In this document: positions 26,571-64,000 of the stretch, piece by piece | Layout of the letters: each line of letters starts with the position of its first letter | Position numbering within the stretch: position 1 is the first letter of the stretch | Assembly: GCF_003149185.1 (NCBI RefSeq) | Contig: NZ_QGDO01000007.1 | Coordinates: 246,190 to 310,189 of the forward strand | Origin: Sediminitomix flava | Lineage (GTDB): Bacteria > Bacteroidota > Bacteroidia > Cytophagales > Flammeovirgaceae | DNA length: 64,000 bases | Direction: 5' to 3' | Notes under the pieces: generated by a model | The model's input: only the letters and a program-made list of their open reading frames with translations | Told to the model about the DNA's origin: nothing | Database searches by the model: none | Translations under genes and position numbers: made by a program

Positions 26571-26682
26571 CACCTATCTTCCTCAGACACCTCTGAGCCG
26601 GGAATTGGCACCAAGCATGTAAAGCTTCTTGGTTGCCAAGGCATCATTGAGCCCGGTCTCTCCACCTTTCAGGATAAGTGGT
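26571..26682 (-). promoter_or_regulatory. SAM-I (S-box) riboswitch
   Basis: Minus strand, in order: the P1 arm CTTATCCTG, AAAGGTGGAGAGACCGGGC, then GATGCCTTGGCAACC, then GGTGCCAATTCC, and the closing P1 arm GAGGAAGATAGG. These are the conserved S-box elements, including the kink-turn and the internal loop that binds SAM. It sits in the 349-bp leader of metH with a terminator downstream, so it is expected to repress methionine synthase when SAM is plentiful. Confidence 0.95.
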
Positions 26683-51262: not shown

Positions 51263-51370
51263 GTTTTAATAAGTTTTATTTACATGGGGGTAGAAATCCA
51301 AAGTCAATCAAAAAAGTGGTGATGAAAAAAAAATCACCACCACTGCATAAACACAACATTATCTGCAAGT

Positions 51371-52591
51371 TTATTTTTGATTGGAAGGTATTATTTTAAT
51401 CTCTTTTAGTGCATTTTTTAAATCTTCTTCGCTGGTTGCCACATATTTCATCAAAGTCTTTAAATCTTGATGACCAGTAAGCTTCATTACGGTTGTTACA
51501 GGAACTCCGTTTTGAAGTAGTAACGTTATCCCTGTTCGCCTTGCCATATGTGATGTTACACACTTCCATTTTGGAATCTTTGTTACCTTTATGTTACTAC
51601 CAGAGTAATTATATTTCTCAACTTCTCTTGTTATCCCTGCCTTACGGCTAGCCTCTTTAATGAACTCATTTAATTTAGCATTATGTATTCTGGGCAATTT
51701 TCCATTATACTTTTTCAGAATCTTTATCGCTGGGGAAGCATAGCCCACCAAAGGTACCGTTATACCTTTTTTAGTTTTCTTAGACATGAATCGCCAAAGG
51801 TTCTCTGATAATTGGGCTTCATCAAATTTAATTAAATCACTATAACGCTGACAAGTAAAGCATGCAAAACAGAAAAGGTCACGGGCTACATCAAGATTCT
51901 TATCTTCAGTTGCAAATTCATGAGTGAACAACTTTATCAATTCCTGCTCAGTTAGTACAATTGGTTCTTTTTTAGGAGGAGATTTATATTTGAGAACTAG
52001 ATAAGAATCATTATCGTGGTATTTACGATCATAAGCCCAGCGCATGAAAGCTTTAATGCTTTTAATATTTCCATGGATTGTACTATCCTGTCTTCCTTTC
52101 TCAAATGAATAATCAAGGAAGTGATCAAGGAATGAAAGATTGATTGTCTGAAATGTTATTTTATAACCTGTAGATTTTTGAAATCTTTTCAACAAACTTA
52201 CAACTACAAGGTACTTTTTCTTAGTTCTTATACTATCATACTTCCCTCTAAATGCCGCAAATTCTTCAAAAACAGAAAAAAAATCATTCGCTTCAGGTGG
52301 TTGAAATAAAGCCCTAATCAAAGCAATCACCTCGTTTTCCTCTTTACCCTCAGCTAGTGCATTGTAAAAAATAGTCAATACTTTCTCCTGCTGGGTCATA
52401 AGATATTTATTTATAGCAAGAGCATTTGCTGTTTTTCGTTTAACACACATCCTTATGGAATCCCATTGCTCAGGTTTTACCTTCAGTCTTGTATATAGTT
52501 TATAACGCTTGCCATTAAGCCTAAAATATAGGAATATTTTATCCTCTCCTTTCCTGTTCAGAGTTCCCGATAAATGATATCTAACATTCAT
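51371..52591 (-). CDS. island integrase (tyrosine recombinase)
   Basis: A 406-residue integrase of Bacteroidota type: arm-binding domain (MNVRYHLSGTLNRKGEDKIFLYFRLNGKRYKLYTRLKVKPEQWD), core-binding domain, and catalytic Arg in TCQRYSDLIKF, SHMARRTG (HxxR), GHQDLKTLMKYV (His and Tyr). All catalytic residues are present. It lies 175 bp from attR, the standard position of the gene that inserted the island into tRNA-Arg. The two other recombinases are on the same strand. Confidence 0.9.
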   Translation of the reverse strand: MNVRYHLSGTLNRKGEDKIFLYFRLNGKRYKLYTRLKVKPEQWDSIRMCVKRKTANALAINKYLMTQQEKVLTIFYNALAEGKEENEVIALIRALFQPPEANDFFSVFEEFAAFRGKYDSIRTKKKYLVVVSLLKRFQKSTGYKITFQTINLSFLDHFLDYSFEKGRQDSTIHGNIKSIKAFMRWAYDRKYHDNDSYLVLKYKSPPKKEPIVLTEQELIKLFTHEFATEDKNLDVARDLFCFACFTCQRYSDLIKFDEAQLSENLWRFMSKKTKKGITVPLVGYASPAIKILKKYNGKLPRIHNAKLNEFIKEASRKAGITREVEKYNYSGSNIKVTKIPKWKCVTSHMARRTGITLLLQNGVPVTTVMKLTGHQDLKTLMKYVATSEEDLKNALKEIKIIPSNQK

Positions 52592-52675
52592 AATAACGAC
52601 ATTATAGTTGTGTGACGATCTAAATGCCGAGGCTTATTCTTTGCTGTAATCAGGTTTGTCTAATAGGGGAAGAAA

Positions 52676-52699
52676 TTAGGGGACACATTAGGGGGATGT
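52676..52699 (+). repeat. possible integrase arm-type repeat, right end
   Basis: TTAGGGGACA-catt-AGGGGGA-tgt, 20 of 24 bases equal to the left-end copy at 32521-32544 and in the same orientation. It lies between the integrase start and attR; a partial copy (AATAGGGGA) is just upstream. Confidence 0.5.
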
Positions 52700-52765
52700 A
52701 TTTGTCAAAAACATACTTAAAGTGGCAAAAACAGCTGCTTTTAAGTATGTTAAAACTTAAATTAA

Positions 52766-52784
52766 AGTCCCGCTGGGGCTACAA
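52766..52784 (+). repeat. attR: direct repeat of island
   Basis: The second copy of AGTCCCGCTGGGGCTACAA. It is not part of a complete tRNA gene: the sequence to its left does not continue the tRNA. Confidence 0.88.
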
Positions 52785-52969
52785 GATATGTTACAGAATA
52801 CGCAGAATTTGAACATTATGCTCTTACGACTACGTGAGGGCATTTTTGTTTTACACAAAATTTGATCTACAAGCAGTAGATACCCTCATTTGTTTAGCAA
52901 TTTGGTCTCAGAGTGTTTAGCAATCTTGTTTGACCAAATTTTTGCTAAACATTTTAACCTATAAAACTT

Positions 52970-53272
52970 ATGAGTTGTACTGTAAAATTAAATTTAAGAA
53001 CTAGTCATCCAAAAAAAAGTGGCGAGTGTACGATTTACCTCCGTCTGACTATTAACCGAAAAATACATTGGATTAACCTCAAAGAACATGTACACCCTGA
53101 ATACTGGGATGATCATTCAGAATTAGAGAAAATAAAGTCAAACCATCCTAGAGCAAAACGACTCAATATCAAATTAAGGAAAGAATACAACAGGCTCAGA
53201 GAGATTATTGATCAGCTTGAGATCCTCGGACAAACAGATTCATTACCAAACCAAACTGCTAATCTTTTTTGA
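52970..53272 (+). pseudogene. truncated tyrosine recombinase, N-terminal arm domain only
   Basis: The reading frame begins MSCTVKLNLRTSHPKKSGECTIYLRLTINRKIHWINLKEHVHPEYWDDH, the arm-binding domain of Bacteroidota integrases (compare KVKPEQWD in the island integrase). It stays recruitable to about residue 85 (EIIDQLE, base 53221), after which it continues only by chance through the antisense of a SpoU methyltransferase gene. The core-binding and catalytic domains are gone. It is thus a remnant of another integrase next to attR, cut at about 53222-53235. Confidence 0.8.
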
Positions 53273-53664
53273 GTATAATTACCATCTTGAAGATATAGAT
53301 TCTTTTTCCCTTTCACATGTGGTGATGTAACAATTGAAATATATCTATTTTTCTCTAGATGTTCCAGACACTTATCTGTACTTTCAAAAGTCTTGACAAA
53401 AGTCCATTTAATAGCAGAAACAGATGTATTTAAAAGTGACTTTCTTGACCTCATTCCTTCCCATTCTTCGGGTAGTCTTTTTTTACTATCAACCACATAG
53501 AGCTTCTCAACTCCTAATGCATTTATAGTACGTACCACTTTACCAATATTCTTGAAATCTGTTGGTTCTTCCAGAACAGCTATCAAATTTTTACATCTTA
53601 GGTCTTTTACTTTGTCTGCCTTTATTCTTAAAGAGCTTTTATTGTCTTTTGAATTTTCACCCAT
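53212..53664 (-). pseudogene. cassette gene: SpoU-family RNA methyltransferase, 3' truncated
   Basis: 150 residues, beginning MGENSKDNKSSLRIKADKVKDLRCKNLIAVLEEPTDFKNIGKVVRTINALGV. The N-x-G-x-x-x-R-x-x-x-A-x-G signature marks SpoU (TrmH-like) 2'-O-methyltransferases. The frame still contains RLAVWFGNE, the start of motif 2, but then runs into SVCPRISS and stops. About 50 residues with the SAM-binding knot are missing, so the product is probably inactive. The break is where the truncated recombinase begins (about 53222-53235). It is the last cassette of the array on the left; its own attC is lost. Confidence 0.8.
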
Positions 53665-53734
53665 TTCAAATTAAGTCTAGTTTAATCGACTCATCTTTCA
53701 TTCAAAAAAATGAGAATACACTAACTCTTGTGCC

Positions 53735-53803
53735 TAACGACCCGGGCATGATATCGCAGGCAGATTGCGTCGCATAGCTGCCTGTGGAATATGCCCCTTG
53801 TTA
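53735..53803 (-). repeat. attC-like site 1
   Basis: 69 bp from TAACGA to CTTGTTA. Type A: stem CAGGCAG/CTGCCTG around TTGCGTCGCA. Belongs to the cassette at 53811-54256: the TTATAGCT end of that cassette matches the complement of its right end (AGCTATAA). The right-hand arm GGGCAT pairs with ATGCCC. Confidence 0.92.
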
Positions 53804-53810
53804 TAGCTTT

Positions 53811-53948
53811 TTAATCGCCTACAATAAGCAGACTGTGATTATTATTTATAGCTGTCTGAAAGACTTCCTTCCAATTACACTTTGAGTCAATTAATTGTTC
53901 TAGAAGCTTCAAATCGTCAATATACAATCTAGTATTTCCATTTTTCAA
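53811..53948 (-). CDS. cassette gene: small downstream frame (45 aa)
   Basis: A 45-residue frame (TTG start at 53948; KNGNTRLYIDDLKLLEQLIDSKCNWKEVFQTAINNNHSLLIVGD, stop TAA at 53811-53813) that overlaps the stop codon of the preceding 103-residue gene. Translation by re-initiation or a -1 frameshift would join the two into one protein of about 150 residues. Alternatively the cassette carries two proteins. No ATG is available in this frame, which makes an independent gene less certain. No family was recognised. Confidence 0.45.
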   Translation of the reverse strand: MKNGNTRLYIDDLKLLEQLIDSKCNWKEVFQTAINNNHSLLIVGD

Positions 53949-54256
53949 ATTATCCGTCCTTTTCGATAAACACCTATCGACTTATGATCTATACTTGAAA
54001 TAAAGTGTTCATTCCATAAAACGTAATTATCATCAAGAGTCTGTAAAAGTAATTCCAATTCAGTTAAAGATATCGTTCTTGAATTTTGTCTGTCTAAAAT
54101 CAGATGAACTTTTGTTGTCTGAAAATAATCAGAAATTAGACGTACTAAAGTCTTAACATCTTTATTAGGTGATTGACCTATGTGGTAATACTCATATTCC
54201 CAGTTCACCTTATGTATTAATCTTTTTGAAGTATTAAAAAGATCTCTTGAATCCAT
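53945..54256 (-). CDS. cassette gene: unknown 103-residue protein
   Basis: Start at ATG 54256 (MDSRDLFNTSKRLIHKVNWEYEYYHIGQSP); a TTG three codons upstream is the alternative. No signal peptide or membrane segment. The C-terminal half reads TVSLTELELLLQ-like (actual RTISLTELELLLQTLDDNYVL), helical. No family recognised. Its stop overlaps a second frame in the same cassette. In the array it lies between attC sites 1 and 2. Confidence 0.55.
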   Translation of the reverse strand: MDSRDLFNTSKRLIHKVNWEYEYYHIGQSPNKDVKTLVRLISDYFQTTKVHLILDRQNSRTISLTELELLLQTLDDNYVLWNEHFISSIDHKSIGVYRKGRII

Positions 54257-54269
54257 TATCAATTAGCTA

Positions 54270-54341
54270 TAACGAATCGGGCATGGTAATGCACTTAGGT
54301 CGTGTTGCTGGTAAGTGCGGTGTGAACTATGCCCCTTGTTA
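54270..54341 (-). repeat. attC-like site 2 (type B core)
   Basis: 72 bp. The outer arms AACGA-TCGGGCATGGTA and TATGCCCCTTGTT are as in the other sites, but the central stem is GCACTTA/TAAGTGC instead of CAGGCAG/CTGCCTG. Belongs to the cassette of 54347-54964. Confidence 0.9.
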
Positions 54342-54346
54342 TAGGG

Positions 54347-54964
54347 TTATTTTATCCTTTTTAAAAATCTTAATCGATTAGTTCGCTTGGCATATTTAAT
54401 ATACTTTGAGTAATGAATATCCCACAATCTTAGTATTAATTCATCTTCATTAAGTAATTCTATTTCCTCAATTTGCTGACTTATCATACTTGTCCATAAA
54501 ATGCAATACCTATTCTTATATTTAACAATACTTGGTATTGATTTACATGTTGAAATAATTCTTGGATACTTTATAGGATACTCGTTATAACTGTCAACAA
54601 ACATCTTCCTTGACGTTGAGTCCATAGAAAACTCAAGATAATACTGATTTTTTTGTTTTTGAATTCCGCTAATTACACTCTTTTCGAATTGCCATACGCC
54701 TTTTAATTTAAATGCTACTTTATGGAGGGTATCAATTTCTGATAACGGGGTTCCATCTGCTAAATTCAATTCAATTAGCGAATCTAAAGATGAATACTCT
54801 CTAGTTAGTTCATCTAAATCAATAGAGCTATCATCTAATAATTCCTCTACTTTTTCGATTTCATAATATAGGGTATCATATATTACATTTTGCGAATAGA
54901 TAACTCTCACTAAAAGCCAAAAAAATATAGTAAATAATACTCTCAAGTTAATTTTATTAATCAT
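54347..54964 (-). CDS. cassette gene: exported protein of unknown function
   Basis: 205 residues with a signal peptide (INLRVLFTIFFWLLVRVIYSQ). The mature part contains LKGVWQFEKSVISG and several beta-prone segments (IQKQKNQYYLEFSMDSTSRKMFV), weakly lipocalin-like. Ends basic (KYAKRTNRLRFLKRIK). Cassette ends GTTATAGGG and CCCTATAAC match over 9 bp. No family recognised. Confidence 0.6.
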   Translation of the reverse strand: MINKINLRVLFTIFFWLLVRVIYSQNVIYDTLYYEIEKVEELLDDSSIDLDELTREYSSLDSLIELNLADGTPLSEIDTLHKVAFKLKGVWQFEKSVISGIQKQKNQYYLEFSMDSTSRKMFVDSYNEYPIKYPRIISTCKSIPSIVKYKNRYCILWTSMISQQIEEIELLNEDELILRLWDIHYSKYIKYAKRTNRLRFLKRIK

Positions 54965-54970
54965 TCCCTA

Positions 54971-55039
54971 TAACGACTCGGGCATGGTGTCGCAGGCAGG
55001 TTGCGTCGCAAGACGGCCTGTGCAATATGCCCCTTGTTA
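54971..55039 (-). repeat. attC-like site 3
   Basis: 69 bp, type A with CAGGC/GCCTG. Belongs to the transglutaminase-like cassette: ends GTTAGCCTC and GAGGCTAAC match over 9 bp. Confidence 0.92.
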
Positions 55040-55050
55040 GCCTCTGTTAT

Positions 55051-56025
55051 TTATACTTTCAATAATGGCTTTAATTTGTATACAGCTATTGCTTTATTAT
55101 TGCAATAAATAGTCAAATATCCTCTTTTCCTTCCGCCTTTAGGAATCTCAAAATACGGTTTCCCTTTATCTTTTTTTATCTCGATTCGAGTTGAATACTT
55201 ATCATTATTAAATGCATATGTTAACTTTCGGCTTGTTTCTGAATTAAGATAAAAAATAACTTTATCCCCTTCAGAACTATCAATTACTCCGATTTGGGGA
55301 GATTCAATTTTAAAATCTGAATTTAAATATTCTGAATAATATAAAGGAAGGTTTGCAAAATCTTCTTTTGTCTTAGAAATTAACAGCCACTTAGCATCGG
55401 AGGGATAATGCTTATAAAAAAAAAATTCAGGATCAGTAAAAAAGTATGATTCATCATATTCTTTGATAAACAGCTCTGAATTTACATATCCCGCTCCCCA
55501 AGTTGAATCTATTAACTTCCACTCATTATTAATCTTAACTGCATTCCACGCATGATCTTCAACTTTCGGATATATCCCAATATCTCCCTTTACTGTTTTG
55601 GATGAACCACTAATAATTACACATTCAATATCAGTTAAATCACATAAACTTTTAAAAATCCTAGAGTATCCATCACATATTGCCACTTTTTTCTTAAGAA
55701 CTGACCTTACTAACTTTTCATTATATTTTTGTTCTTTTCGCTTTAATTCTTCCTTAGTACGATAAGTAAAATACACACCTTTCTTATTCTTTTTTGAATA
55801 AAGTGTTTCAACATCATAGGCTATATTGTTAGCGATCCAAAAATATATTGCTCCAACTTTATCAACCTCTTCTTTAAAATCTTTATTAATTTTAGATGCT
55901 ATTTTTTCAGGTTTCGTAAATCTAGAAGGGTAATTCTTTACTATAACTTTGACTTTATCACTTATTTGGGCATTTACTGATAAGTCTAAATTCAGAATTA
56001 ATACAAATAATAATAACTTTTTCAT
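55051..56025 (-). CDS. cassette gene: exported transglutaminase-like protein
   Basis: 324 residues with a signal peptide (MKKLLLFVLILNLDLSVNAQ). The transglutaminase-like core (about residues 60-190) has all three catalytic residues: Cys in VAICDGYSRIFKSL, His in VEDHAWNAVKI and Asp in LIDSTWGAGY. The family (CYK3/protease-like) acts on or resembles cysteine proteases that cleave or crosslink peptides; substrates are unknown. It is the longest cassette in the array (1068 bp). Confidence 0.82.
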   Translation of the reverse strand: MKKLLLFVLILNLDLSVNAQISDKVKVIVKNYPSRFTKPEKIASKINKDFKEEVDKVGAIYFWIANNIAYDVETLYSKKNKKGVYFTYRTKEELKRKEQKYNEKLVRSVLKKKVAICDGYSRIFKSLCDLTDIECVIISGSSKTVKGDIGIYPKVEDHAWNAVKINNEWKLIDSTWGAGYVNSELFIKEYDESYFFTDPEFFFYKHYPSDAKWLLISKTKEDFANLPLYYSEYLNSDFKIESPQIGVIDSSEGDKVIFYLNSETSRKLTYAFNNDKYSTRIEIKKDKGKPYFEIPKGGRKRGYLTIYCNNKAIAVYKLKPLLKV

Positions 56026-56038
56026 CTCTTATGGAGGC

Positions 56039-56107
56039 TAACGACTCGGGCAGGGTATCGCAGGCAGATTGCGTCGCATAGCTGCCTGTGGAATATGCCC
56101 CTTGTTG
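56039..56107 (-). repeat. attC-like site 4
   Basis: 69 bp, type A. One base of the outer arm differs (GGGCAG for GGGCAT). Belongs to the cassette of 56118-56498: ends GTTGTGCTTA and TAAGCACAAC match over 10 bp. Confidence 0.9.
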
Positions 56108-56117
56108 TGCTTAGTTT

Positions 56118-56498
56118 TTAAGGTTTCCAAATAATGTAGTTTTCAACTCCTTCATCAGTTTCTTCATCTACTAATGTCCATTTTAGAAATGAAGAAATTT
56201 TGATCAACACTTTTTCGATTACTTTATAGTCGTCATGATTTTTCTTAGTACAGACAATTGTTATCAAGTTTGTATCATCGAAACTTGAATCTAATTCATT
56301 CCAATTATCTATACTTTTTGCATCTAGAAGCGACAATTCTATAAAAGGAAAATGTTCTTTATTTTGAAATCGAAAATCTCCAATATTTTCAAGGTCAGAA
56401 ATCTCATTTAAAAACTCTAATATTTTTTGAGTCGAAACTTTCTCACTTAAAAATTCATCTTTATAGATGTTCAAATAATAGTAATTATCAGACCACAT
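56118..56498 (-). CDS. cassette gene: unknown 126-residue protein
   Basis: A cytoplasmic acidic protein (MWSDNYYYLNIYKDEFLSEKVSTQKILEFLNEI ... NLITIVCTKKNHDDYKVIEKVLIKISSFLKWTLVDEETDEGVENYIIWKP). No signal peptide, no cysteine cluster. The short, acidic, alternating helix-strand form resembles small immunity-type proteins, but I cannot name a family. Confidence 0.5.
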   Translation of the reverse strand: MWSDNYYYLNIYKDEFLSEKVSTQKILEFLNEISDLENIGDFRFQNKEHFPFIELSLLDAKSIDNWNELDSSFDDTNLITIVCTKKNHDDYKVIEKVLIKISSFLKWTLVDEETDEGVENYIIWKP

Positions 56499-56611
56499 TT
56501 TGTATATCTGTAAATTCTGCCCAAGTATTATCTTTAGTTGAATCGAACAATTAGAACTATCATATTAGAAATTTCATTTCTATGATTCTTAAGAGTTATA
56601 CTTATTAAGCA

Positions 56612-56680
56612 CAACGACTTGGGCATGGTGTCGCAGGCAGATTGCGTCGCAAGACTGCCTGTGCAATATGCCCCTTGTTG
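56612..56680 (-). repeat. attC-like site 5
   Basis: 69 bp, type A. Belongs to the cassette of 56690-57157: ends GTTGGGCTCA and TGAGCCCAAC match over 10 bp and fit the classical GTTRRRY/RYYYAAC exactly. Confidence 0.92.
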
Positions 56681-56689
56681 GGCTCAGTT

Positions 56690-57157
56690 TTATTTAATTG
56701 GGCTTTTAAGCATTTGAATTAAAACATCTTCAACTTTATCTCGAGTAATTTCATCAAACTGAAAAACATGTATTTTACTATTAACAATTGATTTTTCCAT
56801 TGAAAACATAACATTCTGATTTACCCCTTTTCCAAAAATCATGATCCGAATCGGACTACTATCACCATTCAAAAACAGTTCAAAACGTATCTCTGGTTGG
56901 ACATTTTCTATATTCAAATTTTCATACTTTAACTTTAATTCATGTCCATAGTCTTTAAAAGAAACACCTAAATCGTCAAAGACAGGTTTTATGATATCAT
57001 TATATACCTTCTGAAATTTTGAGAAATATTTTTCTTTACCTTCTTTTTTTCTCTTAAGCACTTCATGTAGCAATTGCTCTTGTTCTGACTTAAATTTCTC
57101 TTGAGCACTTAAAATTTCATTAAGTTTTTCAGAACCTCTTTTTTGGGGATATTTCAT
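56690..57157 (-). CDS. cassette gene: unknown coiled-coil protein
   Basis: 155 residues from the ATG at 57157 (MKYPQKRGSEKLNEILSAQEKF); the longer frame would begin inside the neighbouring attC site. Residues 8-60 form a charged coiled coil (EKFKSEQEQLLHEVLKRKKEGKEKYFSKF), followed by a mixed domain (LKLKYENLNIENVQPEIRFELFLNGDSSPIRIMIFGKGVNQNVMF). No family recognised. Confidence 0.5.
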   Translation of the reverse strand: MKYPQKRGSEKLNEILSAQEKFKSEQEQLLHEVLKRKKEGKEKYFSKFQKVYNDIIKPVFDDLGVSFKDYGHELKLKYENLNIENVQPEIRFELFLNGDSSPIRIMIFGKGVNQNVMFSMEKSIVNSKIHVFQFDEITRDKVEDVLIQMLKSPIK

Positions 57158-57187
57158 AATAGATTTTTTAATTAGCAATATTGAGCC

Positions 57188-57273
57188 CAACGCCTAGGCT
57201 ATAGTGCGTGTGTATCGGCTAAGGTCGAGTCGACCGCAACACTGCGTGGACAATGCACCTATAGCCGATGTTA
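57188..57273 (-). repeat. attC-like site 6 (divergent, 86 bp)
   Basis: CAACGCCTAGGCTATAGTGCG ... ATGCACCTATAGCCGATGTTAG. The arms GGCTATAG-TGC pair with GCA-CTATAGCC. The sequence differs from every other site in the array outside the core, but the core and the fold are of the same kind. Belongs to the cassette of 57282-58100: ends GTTAGCATTA and TAATGCTAAC match over 10 bp. Confidence 0.85.
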
Positions 57274-57281
57274 GCATTATT

Positions 57282-58100
57282 TTATAATTTGACTATTTGC
57301 CACTTCAACTCCCTCTCAATTACCAACTTTTCTTCATCCGTTAAAAACAAAAGTAGTATTTCTTGACCACCTGTAAATTCGGATGTTAGTGTATAAAGTC
57401 CTGCCTTATTTATTTCAAGGCTTTGGTTTATTTTTTTAGTTATTTCACTTAGGTCATACCAATCATCCCAATAATTAGGATTTACAGCATATCTATTTCC
57501 ATTACTTACAAAGGATATTTCGATTGGTCCCTCATCAGAATCCCATGTTTCTTTTATTTCTGTTGGTTTGAAGGTTTGCTTTGAAAGCTCCTCCATATCC
57601 TTAAGATATTCTGTGTAAGATGAGTTTTCCTTACATACATCAGCCTCTAAATCTAGCAGAATAGCTTTAGTATTATCTTGCAATGCAATCAACATAGACT
57701 CTTCAGTAAATTGTCTCTGCTTGACCTTTTTATCTTTAAGAACGTTATCTGAGCAATTGGTTTCCTTAAAAAAGCCTGCATTCTTTAAATGAAATAATAC
57801 ATTTTTAGTATCAAATGTAACAAGGGTATGTCTCTTCTTTTGAAGTTCTTCAATATCAAGTATCTCTTCATTTTCAAATTTGTACTCTATAAAAAACAAC
57901 CAATCTTCAGTATCTAAATACCCTCCATTTTCAATGTATATTTTCAATTTCTCATAGAGAGTACTACTTATGTTATTATGTCCCCTATGAATATTTAGAG
58001 TTTCAAGAAGATCTTCTTTAGAGTATTCCATATTGGCATCTTTATTTGAACATGAAATAGAAAAAATGAACACTATGTAAATTATTGGAATATACTTCAT
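57282..58100 (-). CDS. cassette gene: lipoprotein of unknown function
   Basis: 272 residues with a lipoprotein signal (MKYIPIIYIVFIFSISC, lipobox SISC). The mature protein is acidic and Lys-rich with an RHTLVTFDTKNVLFHLKNAGFF segment; ends GGQEILLLFLTDEEKLVIERELKWQIVKL. No known family. It carries its own divergent attC. Confidence 0.65.
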   Translation of the reverse strand: MKYIPIIYIVFIFSISCSNKDANMEYSKEDLLETLNIHRGHNNISSTLYEKLKIYIENGGYLDTEDWLFFIEYKFENEEILDIEELQKKRHTLVTFDTKNVLFHLKNAGFFKETNCSDNVLKDKKVKQRQFTEESMLIALQDNTKAILLDLEADVCKENSSYTEYLKDMEELSKQTFKPTEIKETWDSDEGPIEISFVSNGNRYAVNPNYWDDWYDLSEITKKINQSLEINKAGLYTLTSEFTGGQEILLLFLTDEEKLVIERELKWQIVKL

Positions 58101-58110
58101 TATTTAATGC

Positions 58111-58178
58111 TAACGACTCGGGCATGGTATCGCAGGCAGATAGCGTCGCATACTGCCTGTGGTCTATGCCCCTTGTTA
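58111..58178 (-). repeat. attC-like site 7
   Basis: 68 bp, type A. The stop codon TAA of the gene on its right (58176-58178) is the first triplet of the site, so the gene ends inside attC. Cassette ends GTTATAGGC and GCCTATAAC match over 9 bp. Confidence 0.92.
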
Positions 58179-58847
58179 TAGGCTTTTTTTATTTTCAATT
58201 AGTTTAATATAGTAAGATGATGAATTTTGATATCTATCATAATTCAATTCTATAAATTCTCTTGCTACTAGTAATACTTGATCATAAATCATTTCCAAGT
58301 CAACCGTTTTATCTTGGACTGAATTCCACTCACTTTTATGTTCGTTCGCGATGGGAGTATTAGACATAATTTCACACATCGAAGAAAACTTAATATCAAT
58401 ATTTTTGGATTTTAATCCATCAAGTAATACGTGAATTCTATCTTTGCTACGATGACTAAAATTACCTCTACCAATCGCATAAGTGATCTTTATTTTTGTT
58501 TCATTATCTCCTTTATAATACTCGTCTAACAACATATCTAGTGCTCTGTCACCTATAATACTGAGAGCCCAAAACGTTTTATCAACTACTGGTGTAAATT
58601 GATCAAATAATAGATTGTAAATTTCACCGATTAAAGAGTCATCAATATTTGTAAGTGATTCTGAAAACTTATCTATTAGATGATAAAGAGCAAAAAAACG
58701 AATGTGTGATTCAGGGGATTTCAATAATTCAATTAAAAGAAAAAAAATCTCAGAGTTTAGTAATTCTGAATTGGCATTAGAAATAGCTTCATGTTTCTCT
58801 TTTTCTGCCCCATTCTTCAATATGTTTTTAAACTCTTCTAAAGTCAT
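58176..58847 (-). CDS. cassette gene: HEAT-repeat-like protein
   Basis: 223 residues, all-helical. Repeats such as LLNSEIFFLLIELLKSPESHIRFFALYHLIDKF and VDKTFWALSIIGDRALDMLLDEYY fit HEAT/ARM-type units, a scaffold that binds proteins. No signal peptide. Its stop overlaps the attC site to its left by three bases. Cytoplasmic binding partner unknown. Confidence 0.65.
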   Translation of the reverse strand: MTLEEFKNILKNGAEKEKHEAISNANSELLNSEIFFLLIELLKSPESHIRFFALYHLIDKFSESLTNIDDSLIGEIYNLLFDQFTPVVDKTFWALSIIGDRALDMLLDEYYKGDNETKIKITYAIGRGNFSHRSKDRIHVLLDGLKSKNIDIKFSSMCEIMSNTPIANEHKSEWNSVQDKTVDLEMIYDQVLLVAREFIELNYDRYQNSSSYYIKLIENKKSL

Positions 58848-58859
58848 AATAATTGCCTA

Positions 58860-58928
58860 TAACGTATCGGGCATGGTATCGCAGGCAGGTTGCGTCGCAT
58901 AGCTGCCTGTGGAATATGCCCCTTGTTA
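58860..58928 (-). repeat. attC-like site 8
   Basis: 69 bp, type A (CAGGCAG/CTGCCTG). Cassette ends GTTATGTAC and GTACATAAC match over 9 bp; belongs to 58939-59502. Confidence 0.92.
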
Positions 58929-58938
58929 TGTACTTTTC

Positions 58939-59502
58939 TTAATTTGATTTAAAATCTGATATACATTCATTGCCAAAAGCTCCACTATTAAAAGCTAAAA
59001 CAATATTGTCTTTATAATATTGAAACGAGCAATTATCCGAGTACTTTTTTTGTTGACTAGAATTCAAATCATACTCAAATAATAAATAACTGTATACTCC
59101 TAATCCTCGGTAACCATATTCTATTTCTGCTGGGTTTCCATTAGAAATTCCAATACAGTTTACCTCTTCTAATTTTAAAAACAATTCAATAAAACTTTCA
59201 TCCGTTAAATTAAGATGCTCTTTGACATTTAAAAAGTCTGGTTTAGAAGTAAAAGATTCAAGATCAAAGTCCCATACTTTTATTAACTGTTGTCTAGTAT
59301 CAGTATCAAAGACTGATAAATCAAAATTATTCTTAGAATTGAATCGAATCTGAACTGAATAATTCTTTGGTATCTTATTACGAAAGTAGAAATGAAGCTC
59401 TTGAATTTCTTTGGAGTTCTTTTCGTAATTAGTGATTAAATCATCCTTATTGACACCACAAGAAGCTAAAATGAATAAAAATATAATCTGGTAAAACCTC
59501 AT
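58939..59502 (-). CDS. cassette gene: lipoprotein of unknown function
   Basis: 187 residues with a lipoprotein signal (MRFYQIIFLFILASCGVN, lipobox LASC). The mature part has alternating charged and hydrophobic stretches (NYSVQIRFNSKNNFDLSVFDTDTRQQLIKVW) and ends NIVLAFNSGAFGNECISDFKSN. No family recognised. Confidence 0.6.
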   Translation of the reverse strand: MRFYQIIFLFILASCGVNKDDLITNYEKNSKEIQELHFYFRNKIPKNYSVQIRFNSKNNFDLSVFDTDTRQQLIKVWDFDLESFTSKPDFLNVKEHLNLTDESFIELFLKLEEVNCIGISNGNPAEIEYGYRGLGVYSYLLFEYDLNSSQQKKYSDNCSFQYYKDNIVLAFNSGAFGNECISDFKSN

Positions 59503-59528
59503 CTACATAGATAATAGAAACTTGTACA

Positions 59529-59600
59529 TAACGACTCGGGCATGGTATCGCACTTAGGTCGTGTTGACGGTGAGTGTGGTGTGAGCTATGCCCCTTGTTG
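59529..59600 (-). repeat. attC-like site 9 (type B core)
   Basis: 72 bp with GCACTTA/TGAGTGT (two wobble pairs). Belongs to the two-gene cassette 59610-60220; ends GTTGTAGCCA and TGGCTACAAC match over 10 bp. Confidence 0.9.
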
Positions 59601-59609
59601 TAGCCAGTT

Positions 59610-59930
59610 TTATTTTTTATTGTTAATTACTGTCGGGTTTAAAATATTTTCCAAATCTCCTTTTTCCAATAATTCAGAAATTGTTCTTTCAATGCAATCC
59701 CTTGTCAATTCTTTTACAAACAAATCTGGTGGAATTTGATAAAGACCTTTCAAATTTTCTCCACTTTCCATATCATGCTTTAATGACGTCTCTAAGAATT
59801 TATATGTCCATACGTTAATACCGTAGTCTCTTCCATCTGATAGCGTGACATGAATATTCGCAAATTCATTTTCAACATCCCAATTATTCGGATCAACTTC
59901 TTCGAACTCTAACCACAGTTTAAACTCCAT
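59610..59930 (-). CDS. cassette gene: unknown 106-residue protein
   Basis: A short acidic protein (MEFKLWLEFEEVDPNNWDVENEFANIHVTLSDGRDYGINVWTYKFLETSLKHDMESGENLKGLYQIPPDLFVKELTRDCIERTISELLEKGD...). No signal peptide. It follows the zinc-ribbon gene in the same cassette by 2 bp. The size and composition would suit an immunity-type or regulatory protein, but this is inference. Confidence 0.5.
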   Translation of the reverse strand: MEFKLWLEFEEVDPNNWDVENEFANIHVTLSDGRDYGINVWTYKFLETSLKHDMESGENLKGLYQIPPDLFVKELTRDCIERTISELLEKGDLENILNPTVINNKK

Positions 59931-59932
59931 TC

Positions 59933-60220
59933 TTAAGATCTTTTCCAGTTAAAATTTAAAGCACTACACTTAGGACATTTCCCATATTCTTCGTCAAGTT
60001 GTTTGAAACTACATCGGTTACACTGACCATATTCAATGTTGATATGTGTCACAATGTATTTTGCATCTCTGTGACTCAATTTCTTTTCATCTATCAGTTT
60101 TTTTACTGCTCGAATAGTTGAGCCTTCTTTCACTTTCCTATAGTGCTCTTTTTCAGCTGAGGAAAACTCTGGAATTTCAATTCCTTCTTTCGGTAAACAG
60201 TTTTTACACCGAACTTTCAT
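59933..60220 (-). CDS. cassette gene: zinc-ribbon protein
   Basis: 95 residues. Two metal-binding-type Cys pairs are visible: MKVRCKNC near the start and, later, QCNRC ... KCPKCSA, the latter a CxxC-x(n)-CxxC zinc ribbon. Between them is a helical KEGSTIRAVKKLIDEKKLSHRDAKYIVTHINIEYG segment. It is the first of two genes in this cassette, which is unusual for integron cassettes. Function unknown. Confidence 0.65.
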   Translation of the reverse strand: MKVRCKNCLPKEGIEIPEFSSAEKEHYRKVKEGSTIRAVKKLIDEKKLSHRDAKYIVTHINIEYGQCNRCSFKQLDEEYGKCPKCSALNFNWKRS

Positions 60221-60240
60221 TTTTTATTTTCAATTGGCTA

Positions 60241-60307
60241 CAACGAATCGGGCATGGTATCGCAGCCAGATTGCATCGCATATGGCTGTGGAATATGCCC
60301 CTTGTTG
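60241..60307 (-). repeat. attC-like site 10 (covarying stem)
   Basis: 67 bp. Stem CAGCCA/TGGCTG, where both strands changed relative to CAGGCA/TGCCTG, keeping the pairing. Belongs to 60318-61088; ends GTTGGCATC and GATGCCAAC match over 9 bp. Confidence 0.9.
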
Positions 60308-60317
60308 GCATCTGTTT

Positions 60318-61088
60318 TTAATTTTTAAAGTAAATAAAGTCTAGATAATCAAGGCTATCAAACTTTCTTGTAATTCGTGAATTTTGATAATCTTTGGGTA
60401 AAGTAAATTGATTAATATCTATGGAGCCTTGAAAAGAGTTTGAATAATATACACTATCATAATTTTTCAACTTATATCTAAGCTCTGTTTCAAAACTACC
60501 ACCAAAGTTCAATACTTTAATAACAGCACATTCATTCCTTTTAAGTTCTGAATCATAGTAACTATTACCACACCAACTATATTGCCAATACTCTATTGGT
60601 TTCCATTTACCTTTATCATCCTTAGCTTCACAAATCATCAATACTCTTCCATCTTGAGTTTCAAGATAAATCTGCTTAGTAGTATCCAAATTAAATATGT
60701 AAACAGGTAATGCTTGAACCAAACTTGAATCACTATCGGCTTTGTTAAATATCGTATATTTTAGTTTTGGCATTTGATAACCCCAATATTTTTCGATATC
60801 GATAGAAAGAGTATCTTTTGTATCCACAACTACCCTTAAATCAAATTTCTTTTGTCTATCATTTTTCGAAATTGGATTCCATTCGGAGTCTTTGTTTCTA
60901 GACTCTTCTAATTCCATTACCTCTATTTTATTCTGTGGTGAAATTGAATATTCTACTGAAATTAAATTCGATGTTTTGGGTAAAGAATCTTGATAAATTA
61001 AATACTTATCATGGTTAAAATCTTGTTTCGATTGACAAGAAGTGATGGGTGTAGTCAAAACCAATATGTAAAAAAGTAGATTCCTCAT
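60318..61088 (-). CDS. cassette gene: lipoprotein of unknown function
   Basis: 256 residues with a lipoprotein signal (MRNLLFYILVLTTPITSC, lipobox ITSC). The mature part reads ISPQNKIEVMELEESRNKDSEWNPISK ... LQTEDGRVLMICEAKDDKGKWKPIEYWQYSWCGNSYYDSELKRNECAVIKV, a beta-rich fold with conserved-looking Trp and Cys. No family recognised. Confidence 0.62.
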   Translation of the reverse strand: MRNLLFYILVLTTPITSCQSKQDFNHDKYLIYQDSLPKTSNLISVEYSISPQNKIEVMELEESRNKDSEWNPISKNDRQKKFDLRVVVDTKDTLSIDIEKYWGYQMPKLKYTIFNKADSDSSLVQALPVYIFNLDTTKQIYLETQDGRVLMICEAKDDKGKWKPIEYWQYSWCGNSYYDSELKRNECAVIKVLNFGGSFETELRYKLKNYDSVYYSNSFQGSIDINQFTLPKDYQNSRITRKFDSLDYLDFIYFKN

Positions 61089-61099
61089 ATTATGGATGC

Positions 61100-61168
61100 C
61101 AACGACCCGGGCATGGTATCGCAGGCAGATTGCGTCGCATAGCTGCCTGTGGAATATGCCCTTTGTTG
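61100..61168 (-). repeat. attC-like site 11
   Basis: 69 bp, type A; the right arm reads CTTTGTTG for CCTTGTTR. Ends GTTGTGCAA and TTGCACAAC match over 9 bp; belongs to 61182-61700. Confidence 0.9.
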
Positions 61169-61181
61169 TGCAATGTTTATT

Positions 61182-61700
61182 TTACTCGTTAAGACCTAAA
61201 ATATTAGGCAAACTCCATTTATTTTTAGTATTCTTCGATTCAACTTGAACAGGAAGGCTATCTAAACAATTGCATAATTGCTGTTTCTCTAATTTAGAGA
61301 CTAAGAATACTTGTAATTTAATTGATGAACCATCTTTTAAATATAAAATCAATTGATTCATATCACCATTTGAGATATTTTTTAAAGACGTATGAAATCC
61401 CTCATATCCTAAGTAAATAAACTTTAGCTTTAGAATTTTATCATATCGAATCTGATGTGAGTTAAGAACAATACAATAATTAAGAAAATTAATTACTCCA
61501 TTTTCTTTCTTTGAAAATATAAAGTTTAAAATCAGTGCTACACTCCAAACTCCTAGTACTATATAAATTGAAATAATTTTTTCAATTAAAGGTATAGATA
61601 TAATAAATACAGCTATTCCGATATAAAAAAGTGTTTTTACAACAAAATCAGCAATACTATTTATATTGTTGATAGTTATGTCAAAGCTGATTTTCTTCAT
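61182..61700 (-). CDS. cassette gene: small membrane protein
   Basis: 172 residues with two membrane helices (about residues 20-40, VVKTLFYIGIAVFIISIPLI, and 45-62, ISIYIVLGVWSVALILNFIF) and a soluble C-terminal part (SLKNISNGDMNQLILYLKDGSSIKLQVFLVSKLEKQQLCNCLDSLPVQ). The layout resembles bacterial PH-like or YcxB-type membrane proteins; unknown role. Confidence 0.55.
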   Translation of the reverse strand: MKKISFDITINNINSIADFVVKTLFYIGIAVFIISIPLIEKIISIYIVLGVWSVALILNFIFSKKENGVINFLNYCIVLNSHQIRYDKILKLKFIYLGYEGFHTSLKNISNGDMNQLILYLKDGSSIKLQVFLVSKLEKQQLCNCLDSLPVQVESKNTKNKWSLPNILGLNE

Positions 61701-61721
61701 TTATTAGTTGCTAATGTTGCA

Positions 61722-61788
61722 CAACGATACGGGCATGGTATCGCAGGCAGATTGCGTCGCAAATGCCTGTGGAATATGCCCCTTGTTA
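61722..61788 (-). repeat. attC-like site 12
   Basis: 67 bp, type A with CAGGCA/TGCCTG. Ends GTTAGCGGT and ACCGCTAAC match over 9 bp; belongs to 61803-62399. Confidence 0.92.
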
Positions 61789-61802
61789 GCGGTTCGGCTT
61801 CT

Positions 61803-62399
61803 TTAATTCATTATTTCATTTTTCTTGATCCAAAGTTCGTGTCCAATTGAATCGCTTCCACTTCGATATCTGAAGAATGCTTTCTCGTCTCGGTATTTTG
61901 ATTTTTTGAGGATTCCGAATTTGTAATATTCTTCACTTCCTCTTGTTACACTTACATTAGAAAAGAAAATTGTATCATTTTTGATTTCGTAATTTCCTCT
62001 CACCTCACTTATGCCAAAACATACACTCCTTTCTTTAAACTTATTATTTGGTTTCAATTTGAAAGTTGTCATGCAATTTAATGCTCCTTCTCTTTGGGCT
62101 ATGAATAAGTCTTCACCTTCAAATCTGTCAAAATTTATTATTCCCCTTGGTTTCAAGAAAATTAATCCTAAACTAATCGCAATTATTACGATCATCACGT
62201 TTCGATTTCGATTCGAAAATTTTTCTTTGAACCCTTTCACAATTTGAATTAGACATATCATCAATAAGACTAAAAAGATAATTATCAAATAAATGAAAAT
62301 TGGAAAAGCCCAAATACCTATTTTCCCTTCCCAAAAATGACTTAAATTCACAATTAGGAAAAAGACAATTGTTGTTATTACAAGTCCTTTATTTTTCAA
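61803..62399 (-). CDS. cassette gene: membrane protein of unknown function
   Basis: 198 residues. Three hydrophobic helices in the first 95 residues (LVITTIVFFLIVNLSHF, AFPIFIYLIIIFLVLLMICLI, RNVMIVIIAISLGLIFLK). The C-terminal part is beta-rich (GNYEIKNDTIFFSNVSVTRGSEEYYKFG). The apparent start is a TTG (62399), since no in-frame ATG lies nearer. No family recognised. Confidence 0.5.
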   Translation of the reverse strand: MKNKGLVITTIVFFLIVNLSHFWEGKIGIWAFPIFIYLIIIFLVLLMICLIQIVKGFKEKFSNRNRNVMIVIIAISLGLIFLKPRGIINFDRFEGEDLFIAQREGALNCMTTFKLKPNNKFKERSVCFGISEVRGNYEIKNDTIFFSNVSVTRGSEEYYKFGILKKSKYRDEKAFFRYRSGSDSIGHELWIKKNEIMN

Positions 62400-62426
62400 T
62401 CGTTTTGTTTTTTACTTACTGACCGC

Positions 62427-62498
62427 TAACGTATCGGGCATGGTTTTGCACTTAGGTCGTGTTGACGGTTAGCGCGGTGTGAACTATGCCCCTTGTTA
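62427..62498 (-). repeat. attC-like site 13 (type B core)
   Basis: 72 bp with GCACTTA/TTAGCGC (two mismatches). Belongs to 62500-63159; ends GTTAGCTATC and GATAGCTAAC match over 10 bp. The gene stop is 2 bp from the site. Confidence 0.9.
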
Positions 62499-62499
62499 G

Positions 62500-63159
62500 C
62501 TATCTTTTTTTCTTTCCTATTACTTTAAAAGAAGTTGTATCAGTTAACTCTAGAAGTTCCTTCATCATTTGTTCAAAATCATCGCCTTCATACAGATACA
62601 AATCTAAACTTACTACATTATCTAACTGATAGAATTTACCTTCTCCATCTACAAATAAATTTATGTGATCATTATGAGCTGACGCAAAACAAACAAAGTT
62701 TTTGTTAATGCCGTAATCACTCATATTGTAAGTCCGATTTGGATGGTCTAAAAATTCAACTAGAGTAAGTGTCCAATTATCTGTTTTGCATGGAGAAACT
62801 AACTTCAATCCTCCAAATTCTTCAAGAATTTTTTCTGCATTTTGAACCTCAGGTTGAGTGTTTATTTTGCTTTTATGCAAACTGATTTTTCTATTTGGGT
62901 ACCACCCCGAATCTCTCAGAATCTTATAGTATCTACTACGTTCAAAATCAGCTTGTGATATATATTTATCTAATATCTTCTTTTGAAGAATATTTAATAT
63001 GTCTTTGTCATCATAATTAACTTCAATGAGTTCAAAATACAAATCTTCTCCAACTCTAGATTCTAAATCAGACTCATTATAAAGCCAATATTCGAAATCC
63101 ATACTAGCTTCATCTCCAACTAGAAAATTTAGAATTTTATTCTTTTCAAATTCTTCCAT
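62500..63159 (-). CDS. cassette gene: SUKH-3-like immunity protein
   Basis: 219 residues. The segment LRDSGWYPNRKISLHKSKINTQPEVQNAEKILEEFGGLKL followed by FVCFASAHNDHINLF and VDGEGKFYQLDNV resembles the SUKH-3 immunity fold, found beside polymorphic toxins. An N-terminal 70-residue domain (FEYWLYNESDLESRVGEDLYFELIEVNYDD) is shared with other Bacteroidota small proteins. An immunity role is an inference from fold similarity; no toxin gene adjoins it. Arrays of immunity genes in cassettes would protect against neighbours' toxins. Confidence 0.6.
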   Translation of the reverse strand: MEEFEKNKILNFLVGDEASMDFEYWLYNESDLESRVGEDLYFELIEVNYDDKDILNILQKKILDKYISQADFERSRYYKILRDSGWYPNRKISLHKSKINTQPEVQNAEKILEEFGGLKLVSPCKTDNWTLTLVEFLDHPNRTYNMSDYGINKNFVCFASAHNDHINLFVDGEGKFYQLDNVVSLDLYLYEGDDFEQMMKELLELTDTTSFKVIGKKKR

Positions 63160-63178
63160 CTCAAAAATAGATGATAGC

Positions 63179-63245
63179 TAACGGCTCGGGCATGGTGTCG
63201 CAGGCAGATTGCGTCGCAGATGCTTGTGCAATATGCCCCTTGTTG
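63179..63245 (-). repeat. attC-like site 14
   Basis: 67 bp, type A with CAGGCA/TGCTTG (one G-T pair). Ends GTTGTGCATA and TATGCACAAC match over 10 bp; belongs to 63257-63901. Confidence 0.9.
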
Positions 63246-63256
63246 TGCATAGTATT

Positions 63257-63901
63257 TCATTCTAATGGGGCTATTTTTAAAGGTTCTTCTAGTTCATTTA
63301 AAAGAGGGTTTCTCTTGATCTGATCATTTATCGACAAGAAATGAATAGCTAAGATTAATTGAATATTAGGGTCATCCAAATCAAAATAACTGTTTTCTTT
63401 AAAAATTTCATTAAGCCCAATATCAAATACATTAAAACCACCCGAAGCCTGAATTTTATCAGCATATTTAGCAATTCTTATATTTTTTTTTCCTAGATCT
63501 ATTAAATATTTTTGATACTTACCATCATAGACTGAACAAATATCCTGAAACTTTCTCTTACTAGGATAACGTGTTGCTTCGCAAAACATCCAAATTTCAT
63601 CAAAAGTTGTTGATGAAATCTGTTTATAAAGTTTCTGTTGTTCATCAAAATCTATTCTTGATAACAATTCAAATGCATTTACTAGTAATGAACCGTAGTT
63701 TTTTTCATTAAAACAAACTTTAAAATCTAAACCTGTATCGTCACAAATCGAGTTCTTAAAGAATTCGGTTATCTTTCTTAGATCAGCAATCTGTTCAATT
63801 GTAAAGTTTGACTCTAGTTCCTTTTCAGTGTGTTTCATTTCACACGCGTTCAAAATACATAAGAAGAGAACCTGTATTAATATTAAAATTAGCTTTTTCA
63901 T
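63257..63901 (-). CDS. cassette gene: lipoprotein of unknown function
   Basis: 214 residues from the ATG at 63901 (MKKLILILIQVLFLCILNACEMKH, lipobox LNAC); a Met four codons upstream overlaps the attC boundary and is less likely. The mature part is helical, Asp-rich and Cys-containing (FFKNSICDDTGLDFKVCFNEKNYGSLLVN, MFCEATRYP). No family recognised. Confidence 0.62.
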   Translation of the reverse strand: MKKLILILIQVLFLCILNACEMKHTEKELESNFTIEQIADLRKITEFFKNSICDDTGLDFKVCFNEKNYGSLLVNAFELLSRIDFDEQQKLYKQISSTTFDEIWMFCEATRYPSKRKFQDICSVYDGKYQKYLIDLGKKNIRIAKYADKIQASGGFNVFDIGLNEIFKENSYFDLDDPNIQLILAIHFLSINDQIKRNPLLNELEEPLKIAPLE

Positions 63902-63912
63902 AATTTTATGCA

Positions 63913-63980
63913 CAACGACTTGGGCATGGTGTCGCAGGCGGGTTGCGTCGCAAACGACCTGTGCAATATGCCCCTTGTTG
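63913..63980 (-). repeat. attC-like site 15
   Basis: 68 bp, type A with CAGG/CCTG and an altered middle (GGGTTGCGTCGCAAACGA). It belongs to the cassette whose gene lies beyond 64000. Twenty bases of that cassette are visible; they begin GTTGTGCTTA. Confidence 0.9.
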
Positions 63981-64000
63981 TGCTTAGTTTTTAATTTAAA

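Follow-up and report, generated by a model that had tools for sequence, protein, structure and literature searches.

The closest described systems are canonical integrons, whose IntI tyrosine recombinases act on folded attC sites. According to passages of Bouvier and colleagues (PMC2727003), extrahelical bases set strand choice in canonical sites, and the spacer on the R''-L'' arm is A-rich. Passages of Escudero and colleagues (PMC4792948) name an RKHRH pentad, assign the accommodation of extrahelical bases to the I2 domain, state that this domain has been identified nowhere else, and suggest that gaining it allowed single-stranded sites to be recognised. An early survey picked out intI by this additional domain (passage in PMC2426708), and the title of a study cited there calls the domain necessary for activity. 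Bacteroidota are named among the phyla with integrons in an excerpt of a review (PMC8618304). Among open-licence papers, judged by titles, the starts of abstracts, and passages, none that we found describes an integron whose integrase is without the additional domain. Here, we describe a cassette array in Sediminitomix flava, in a stretch of 64,000 nucleotides (nt; hereafter the window) from contig NZ_QGDO01000007.1 of assembly GCF_003149185.1 (positions 246,190-310,189 of the forward strand; contig C7 below). The array spans window positions 53,212-64,000 and has 15 attC-like sites. This region is the end of a larger array, which was likely built by integron-type tyrosine recombinases that are encoded on two other contigs and lack the IntI additional domain.

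Cassette array and attC-like sites

An earlier note on this stretch proposed an integron-type cassette array of a little-studied class in Bacteroidota, with fifteen attC-like sites spaced 535-1068 nt apart and minus-strand reading frames that end at or just before them. The sites and their spacing held up: start-to-start distances are 535-1068 nt, 14 sites (window 53736-63979, minus strand, 65-70 nt from AAC to GTT) belong to a single sequence family, and the fifteenth (57189-57272) is of a different type, recognised by direct inspection of the sequence. All cassette open reading frames (ORFs) in the window are on the minus strand and stop near the following site, as the note had described. 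The features, read along the minus strand from the contig end, with lengths of encoded proteins in amino acids (aa), are as follows.

63914..63979, minus strand: attC-like site 1, 66 nt, AAC to GTT
63257..63901, minus strand: cassette ORF, 214 aa, without a Pfam match
63180..63244, minus strand: attC-like site 2, 65 nt
62500..63159, minus strand: cassette ORF, 219 aa, SUKH-3 immunity family (PF14433, 1.1e-11)
62428..62497, minus strand: attC-like site 3, 70 nt, second subtype
61803..62399, minus strand: cassette ORF, 198 aa
61723..61787, minus strand: attC-like site 4, 65 nt
61182..61700, minus strand: cassette ORF, 172 aa
61101..61167, minus strand: attC-like site 5, 67 nt
60318..61088, minus strand: cassette ORF, 256 aa
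60242..60306, minus strand: attC-like site 6, 65 nt
59933..60220, minus strand: ORF, 95 aa, first of two in one cassette, without a Pfam match
59610..59930, minus strand: ORF, 106 aa, second in the cassette shared with 59933..60220
59530..59599, minus strand: attC-like site 7, 70 nt, second subtype
58939..59502, minus strand: cassette ORF, 187 aa
58861..58927, minus strand: attC-like site 8, 67 nt
58176..58847, minus strand: cassette ORF, 223 aa, without a Pfam match
58112..58177, minus strand: attC-like site 9, 66 nt
57282..58100, minus strand: cassette ORF, 272 aa
57189..57272, minus strand: attC-like site 10, 84 nt, divergent; the flanking cassettes keep the end-key rule described below (keys AGCATT and GGGCTC)
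56690..57157, minus strand: cassette ORF from the first ATG; a longer reading would start inside site 10
56613..56679, minus strand: attC-like site 11, 67 nt
56118..56498, minus strand: cassette ORF, 126 aa, without a Pfam match
56040..56106, minus strand: attC-like site 12, 67 nt
55051..56025, minus strand: cassette ORF, 324 aa, transglutaminase-like (PF01841, 1.3e-08)
54972..55038, minus strand: attC-like site 13, 67 nt
54347..54964, minus strand: cassette ORF, 205 aa
54271..54340, minus strand: attC-like site 14, 70 nt, second subtype
53945..54262, minus strand: cassette ORF, 105 aa
53736..53802, minus strand: attC-like site 15, 67 nt, final site of the array
53212..53664, minus strand: last reading frame, 150 aa, SpoU methylase-like (PF00588, 1.1e-12)

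Contig C7 stops at the final base of the window, so that the array runs off the contig end. For AACAAGGGGCATA, the core word of the sites, the 6.6-Mb genome gives 98 matches with at most one mismatch versus 3 for a reversed-word control, and the site family is therefore far beyond chance. Nearly all matches cluster where C7 ends, where C8 begins, and where C10 ends, or fall on the small contigs C13-C15 and C17-C22, and the whole-genome scan gave zero matches on C16 and C23-C39. The genome total is at least 94 sites on 12 contigs, in a set from which one false start was dropped, in which another was corrected, and which excludes the fifteenth window site. The collection of this genome is about a hundred small gene cassettes, and the window is one end of it.

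A covariance model trained on 75 of the 94 sites matched all of the best 90 genome candidates (training sites included), and an Rfam scan gave no family matching the attC-like sites. Elsewhere, the same model found sites in just 8 of 57 other genomes, with 1-2 matches each among the best 90 candidates per genome; attC sequences seem host-specific. Because the model rarely matches in other genomes, we used a sequence-independent chain of end keys for relatives.

These keys are private to each cassette: the 6 nt that follow GTT at one site are the reverse complement of those preceding AAC at the next. Among the 82 cassettes between adjacent sites genome-wide, 70 have keys exact at all 6 nt, and agreement per position is 90-96%, versus 26-50% in mismatched cassettes. 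Within a single site, the two sides match at 19-53%, about the level of the mismatched control, so the key belongs to the cassette and not to the site, as it must if each cassette is a circle that opens within the site. Of the 12 exceptions, 7 have cassette bodies longer than 1.1 kb and may hide divergent sites; the sole exception in the window is explained by the divergent site at 57,189-57,272. We had considered the 6-nt private key as a peculiarity of this class and rejected the idea, since it is also present in canonical arrays of the phylum (chains of 12, 5, and 6 sites).

The cassettes form a single-orientation array of mostly one ORF each, one window cassette (59610-60220) having two. 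The longest ORF is in the sense direction in 73 of the 82 cassettes and antisense in 1, and 8 have no ORF of at least 60 aa; in the 73 sense cassettes, the median ORF starts 18 nt after GTT and stops 12 nt before AAC. Pfam assigned 22 families among 72 cassette ORFs of the genome. Immunity-type families include Imm-NTF2-2 and SMI1_KNR4 in two cassettes each and SUKH-3, SUKH_6, DMP19, and SUFU in one each (possibly overlapping); the phage-defence-type family AbiGi is also in the pool, and most other cassette proteins are without a known family. Some cassettes are duplicated inside the genome, at 96.6% and 93% identity.

Many near-identical copies in one genome could also point to a transposon or other dispersed repeat family and not to a site-specific cassette system, a reading that we regard as next to impossible. 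The copies punctuate mostly one-ORF units in one direction with unit-specific end keys, occur on 12 contigs, and follow an integrase in relatives, and a stretch shared with another genome has its left edge at CGTT (see below). Nor were the sites found inside transposon ends, the alternative that the earlier note had named.

Past the last reading frame (53,212-53,664), no additional attC-like site was found, and this frame overlaps an opposing integrase gene fragment (52,970-53,272). With its end in that overlap and no site after it, the SpoU-like frame looks truncated, and the array end seems to be cut by another mobile (integrative) element. At window 49808-53272, adjoining the array end, two genes for tyrosine recombinases lie beside a 100-aa fragment that has an arm DNA-binding domain. 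Farther away, a S-adenosylmethionine (SAM) riboswitch lies at window 26571-26680 on the minus strand. The tRNA island that the earlier note had placed nearby was not there; only a single tRNA-Arg was found, 21 kb away.

Integrase genes and attI-like points

The earlier note had also proposed a search for intI to the right of the array, where contig C7 offers no further sequence, and this expectation stood in part. An integrase does adjoin an array elsewhere, on contig C10; it is on the other side of that array, and the canonical IntI model TIGR02249 (cut-off 265 bits) matched nothing above cut-off in the genome, the best stretch reaching 130 bits. The two best places of the model are on C3 and C10, with model positions ∼182-240 unmatched, and the whole C3 and C10 integrase proteins score 209 and 199 bits, below the cut-off. 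The C10 integrase is a 379-aa tyrosine recombinase (L010:14305-15444) directed toward the array. A GTT lies 59 nt past its stop, followed by GTGCCCAAT, which agrees with the R'' key of the first attC at 5 of 6 bases, and this first attC is 561 nt past the stop. The C3 integrase (384 aa, 46% identical to that of C10 over 371 residues) is followed by GTT-GGGGCT-CAT, with the contig end 92 nt later. Two heads (C10 and C3) and two tails (C7 and C8) suggest two integrons, the pairing of contigs being left unassigned by the assembly. Archaeal integrons are likewise split over contigs, with up to 107 attC on >18 contigs of one metagenome-assembled genome, and their IntIs have the IntI-specific additional domain, unlike the integrases here (excerpts of PMC9668308).

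Between the same anchors, the region of the additional domain measures 39 residues in all 29 canonical IntI rows and 8-10 residues in all 68 rows of the plain integrases, the type found here (some loci are counted twice); XerC/XerD of three relatives have 9-16 residues, and a PDB alignment to IntI4 shows the same gap. Judged from these alignments, the C10 and C3 integrases lack the IntI additional (patch, I2) domain and so are not IntI by strict definition. Residues R236, K261, H325, R328, H351, and Y360 are invariant across 41 aligned proteins, both own integrases included, and we take them to be the catalytic set.

In front of the tyrosine recombinase, integrases of this type are predicted to carry an N-terminal domain of their own. 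It has no Pfam match even at E 10, and a Foldseek search with the model gave nothing significant; in a profile search, the HARP structure 4o66 was eighth of 14 listed, at a nonsignificant E of 0.3. No significant sequence match links it to the SMARCAL1 HARP or XPB damage-recognition domains, and the domain here differs from them in fronting a tyrosine recombinase. Designed repeat proteins were its best profile matches and were dismissed as chance. Directly upstream of the integrase lies a divergent ORF of 133-142 aa with cysteine pairs (L010:13783-14184 and L009:16189-16617, both minus strand), which has no Pfam or NCBIfam match and has relatives at 28 of 70 loci examined (some loci twice, one match not upstream). 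Upstream of the C10 integron, three similar adjacent genes (L010:8051-12431) presumably encode leucine-rich repeats. At both loci of genome G052 (L099 and L100), another frame directly follows the integrase; its start resembles what we take to be a single-strand DNA-binding protein.

Comparison between loci points to where cassettes may enter. At two loci of genome G003 (C8 and C9), one of whose integrases is interrupted, the sequences after the integrase are alike but for one base through ...ACAATTGTT and then continue with different cassettes. Genomes G002 and G012 have six differences up to ...ATGTT, after which their sequences diverge. As read from these sequence agreements, a candidate attI-like insertion point is present beside the integrase gene.

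Traces of exchange are also seen in the cassettes. Contig C8 of S. flava shares a stretch of 2356 nt, at 93.7% identity, with G014, a genome of another genus. The left edge of the stretch coincides exactly with CGTT, which in C8 closes an attC, and the sequences to the left of this edge are unrelated between the two genomes; the stretch ends at ...CTACA, near the R'' predicted from the key, where the exact key is not kept and no good attC comes next in C8. The first cassette of the C9 array of G003 carries an attC of the type of the S. flava genome. Within the own array, L045:5480-5604 shares 94% identity with an attC-like site at L091 of G003 and 90% with another at L185.

It is improbable, in our view, that the array is a relic, that is, an attC cluster of past cassettes now lacking an active integrase. 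The lack of an IntI above cut-off in the genome, the other recombinase genes and integrase fragment adjoining the array tail, and the 8 of 82 cassettes without an ORF of at least 60 aa would fit a relic. They are outweighed by two open integrase genes with the invariant catalytic residues, one of them directly before an attI and first attC, by the exact end keys kept in 70 of the 82 cassettes, and by the near-identical duplicated cassettes (96.6% and 93%).

Site folding in comparison with canonical integrons

The attC-like sites have R boxes (AAC/GTT), an L stem, and a foldable bottom strand, and canonical sedentary chromosomal integrons (superintegrons; arrays of G121, G301, and G313) are like them in their AAC...GTT sites with imperfect stems. 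Exact 6-nt end keys, mostly one-ORF cassettes in the same direction, and an attI-like point at the integrase are common to both. The system differs from canonical integrons in an integrase without the additional domain and with its own N-terminal domain, in an array on the 3' side of the integrase, and in two properties of the sites: mostly no R''-L'' extrahelical bases near the stem base and a stronger bias toward bottom-strand stability. The counts behind the last two come from predicted folds; sites that share an array are related to each other, and three genomes supply the canonical comparison. Counted up to 20 nt from the site ends, a bulge on the R''-L'' arm is found in 24 of the 27 canonical sites, 21 of the 27 from Flammeovirga loci, 2 of the 94 own sites, and 1 of the 58 from other relatives; up to 24 nt, the numbers are 24, 21, 2, and 6. 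A limit of 34 nt, which reaches the terminal structure, gives 42 of 94 own sites, and 38 of 94 have a small bulge on the opposite arm. The predicted own hairpins are not smooth, but they are mostly without extrahelical bases where canonical sites carry them. The A-rich spacer is found in relatives' sites as well (127 A of 255 positions).

With DNA parameters, the bottom strand is predicted to fold more stably than the top at 94 of 94 own sites, compared with 11 of 27 canonical, 27 of 27 Flammeovirga, and 45 of 58 other relatives' sites (72 of 85 for relatives overall; these 85 are only the sites that passed the chain or walk filter described below). Across 75 distinct aligned own sites, the R, L, and terminal stem structure is paired in 97.7% of cells versus 93.1% in shuffles, and slid pairing partners give only 26-59%; stem double changes number 38, versus 7.7 in shuffles. 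The structure was named from predicted folds of the same sites, which biases this test in its favour.

These folds bear on a rival in which the sites are recombined double-stranded, in the ordinary Xer manner, and the hairpins serve another purpose, such as transcript ends. The catalytic fold of XerA and XerC/XerD is the same as that of the own integrases. Structure searches had XerA (5hxy), an archaeal Xer (4a8e), and IntI4 (2a3v) as top matches with XerA first in both, though IntI4 superposes at a lower root mean square deviation (4.0 versus 13.6). The integrase also lacks the I2 domain, with which canonical integrases handle folded sites. We nevertheless think this rival rather unlikely, because stem pairs are preserved through double changes, the bottom-strand bias is consistent, and the bottom strand has a G after AAC in 75 of 75 aligned own sites and 80 of 85 relatives' sites, as in 27 of 27 canonical sites.

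Our best reading, taken from comparison of sequences, is of a system laid out like an integron: an integron-like platform with a non-IntI integrase, common in its class. In the mechanism we propose, a cassette would be excised as a circle, in which the bottom strand of its attC would fold and the private key would close the stem. The integrase would insert the cassette at G^TT of the attI beside its own 3' end, pushing older cassettes away from attI. The correct strand might be chosen through the higher stability of the bottom-strand fold, an inference we draw because most hairpins lack R''-arm extrahelical bases and the integrase lacks the domain to accommodate them; the predicted N-terminal domain may help grip the hairpin. 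The window array would then be the far, oldest end of one of probably two platforms.

Relatives, placement, and meaning

Relatives of the integrase at E 1e-30 or better are in 33 of the 58 genomes searched; at 1e-60, the class sample of 295 genomes yields 116 with a relative (own genome included in both), many matching the catalytic part only. Canonical IntI exceeded its cut-off in 1 of the 295, with six or seven best candidates scored per genome for these class counts. In a phylum sample, canonical IntI was found in 105 of 395 genomes, and among the matches listed, all but one genome are from other classes. Several thousand relatives are found in protein databases, where 7998 of the 7999 candidates scored reach E 1e-20, and Aquimarina, Zunongwangia, Ancylomarina, Flammeovirga, and Persicobacter are named among the matches. 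A search of a contig collection with the C10 integrase as a single query gave just one distant locus.

Arrays were sought at 42 integrase loci, a nonrandom set of 20 from the 58-genome search, 20 chosen for seemingly long contigs, and 2 own. The walk required a GTT at most 220 nt after the integrase stop and then exact 6-nt keys leading to AAC...GTT sites with an inverted L box. From the attI, it reached at least one chained site in 22 of the 42 loci and at least two in 13, compared with 1 of 840 block-shuffled controls (one site); the own C10 locus, whose key differs at one base, is outside the 22, and at four loci the sequence available is no longer than 265 nt. For 13 loci with sites already found downstream, 20 kb upstream was also taken: 9 of them have a chain of at least three sites 3' of the integrase and none has one 5' of it, where 9 of 13 is not a frequency, as these loci were picked for their downstream sites. 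Of 10 canonical integron loci of the phylum walked on both sides, four gave chains of at least three sites, always 5' of the integrase, and at one of these loci the sites read in the opposite orientation. A contig end lies at most 500 nt from the integrase on its 3' side in 15 of 61 minus-strand hits and on its 5' side in 0 of 68 plus-strand hits. Such clustering is expected if arrays start there, since repeat arrays break assemblies. The layout thus recurs in other genomes, and together with site anatomy, end keys, and the integrase and attI-like point of C10, it supports the little-studied integron class proposed in the earlier note.

One of the arrays in relatives holds genes of another kind: at L093:11780-13745 (G002), two plus-strand frames lie inside the cassette array, opposite to the cassettes, and one is a 277-aa recombinase, similar recombinases being multi-copy in G021.

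These counts also speak to whether the adjacent recombinases are passengers, with the array worked by host XerC/XerD or by a canonical IntI that the assembly lacks. The assembly is indeed broken within arrays; against this, canonical IntI is in 1 of the 295 class genomes and integrases of the own type are in 116, and contig ends lie 3' and not 5' of the integrase (15/61 versus 0/68). We judge the passenger reading very unlikely.

In a tree of 61 catalytic domains, 40 plain integrases fall on one side (93/91) and 14 canonical IntI on another (100/100), and XerC/XerD of three relatives stand apart from IntI plus plain at 100/100. The own integrases differ from these XerC/XerD in grouping with IntI, having an N-terminal domain, and adjoining cassette arrays. 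A 48-row tree that includes seven other recombinases splits IntI from plain at 86/89 and sets XerC/XerD apart at 92/100; in it, the plain side also takes in short multi-copy recombinases, and one added row has a very long branch, so the plain side may include proteins other than integron integrases. The trees were built without archaeal XerA, and the C3 integrase passes the cut-off of NF040815, a model named for XerA and integron integrase alike, which the C10 integrase just misses; for both reasons, the sister position to IntI needs a wider sample. With that proviso, the plain integrases would be a lineage beside IntI.

We are evenly divided on a broader proposal, in which integrons comprise two sister machineries. 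That of Bacteroidia would use a HARP-like recombinase, hairpins with a bulge-less R'' arm, and strand choice by fold stability, with the integrase upstream of its array; it would lie outside surveys that require the IntI domain, and the additional domain would be a later addition to integrons and not their origin. A platform without the domain, and mostly without the bases, allows direct tests of which parts are essential to an integron and of the order in which they arose. With this integrase type in 116 of 295 class genomes and canonical IntI in 1, a large uncounted reservoir of cassettes would open.

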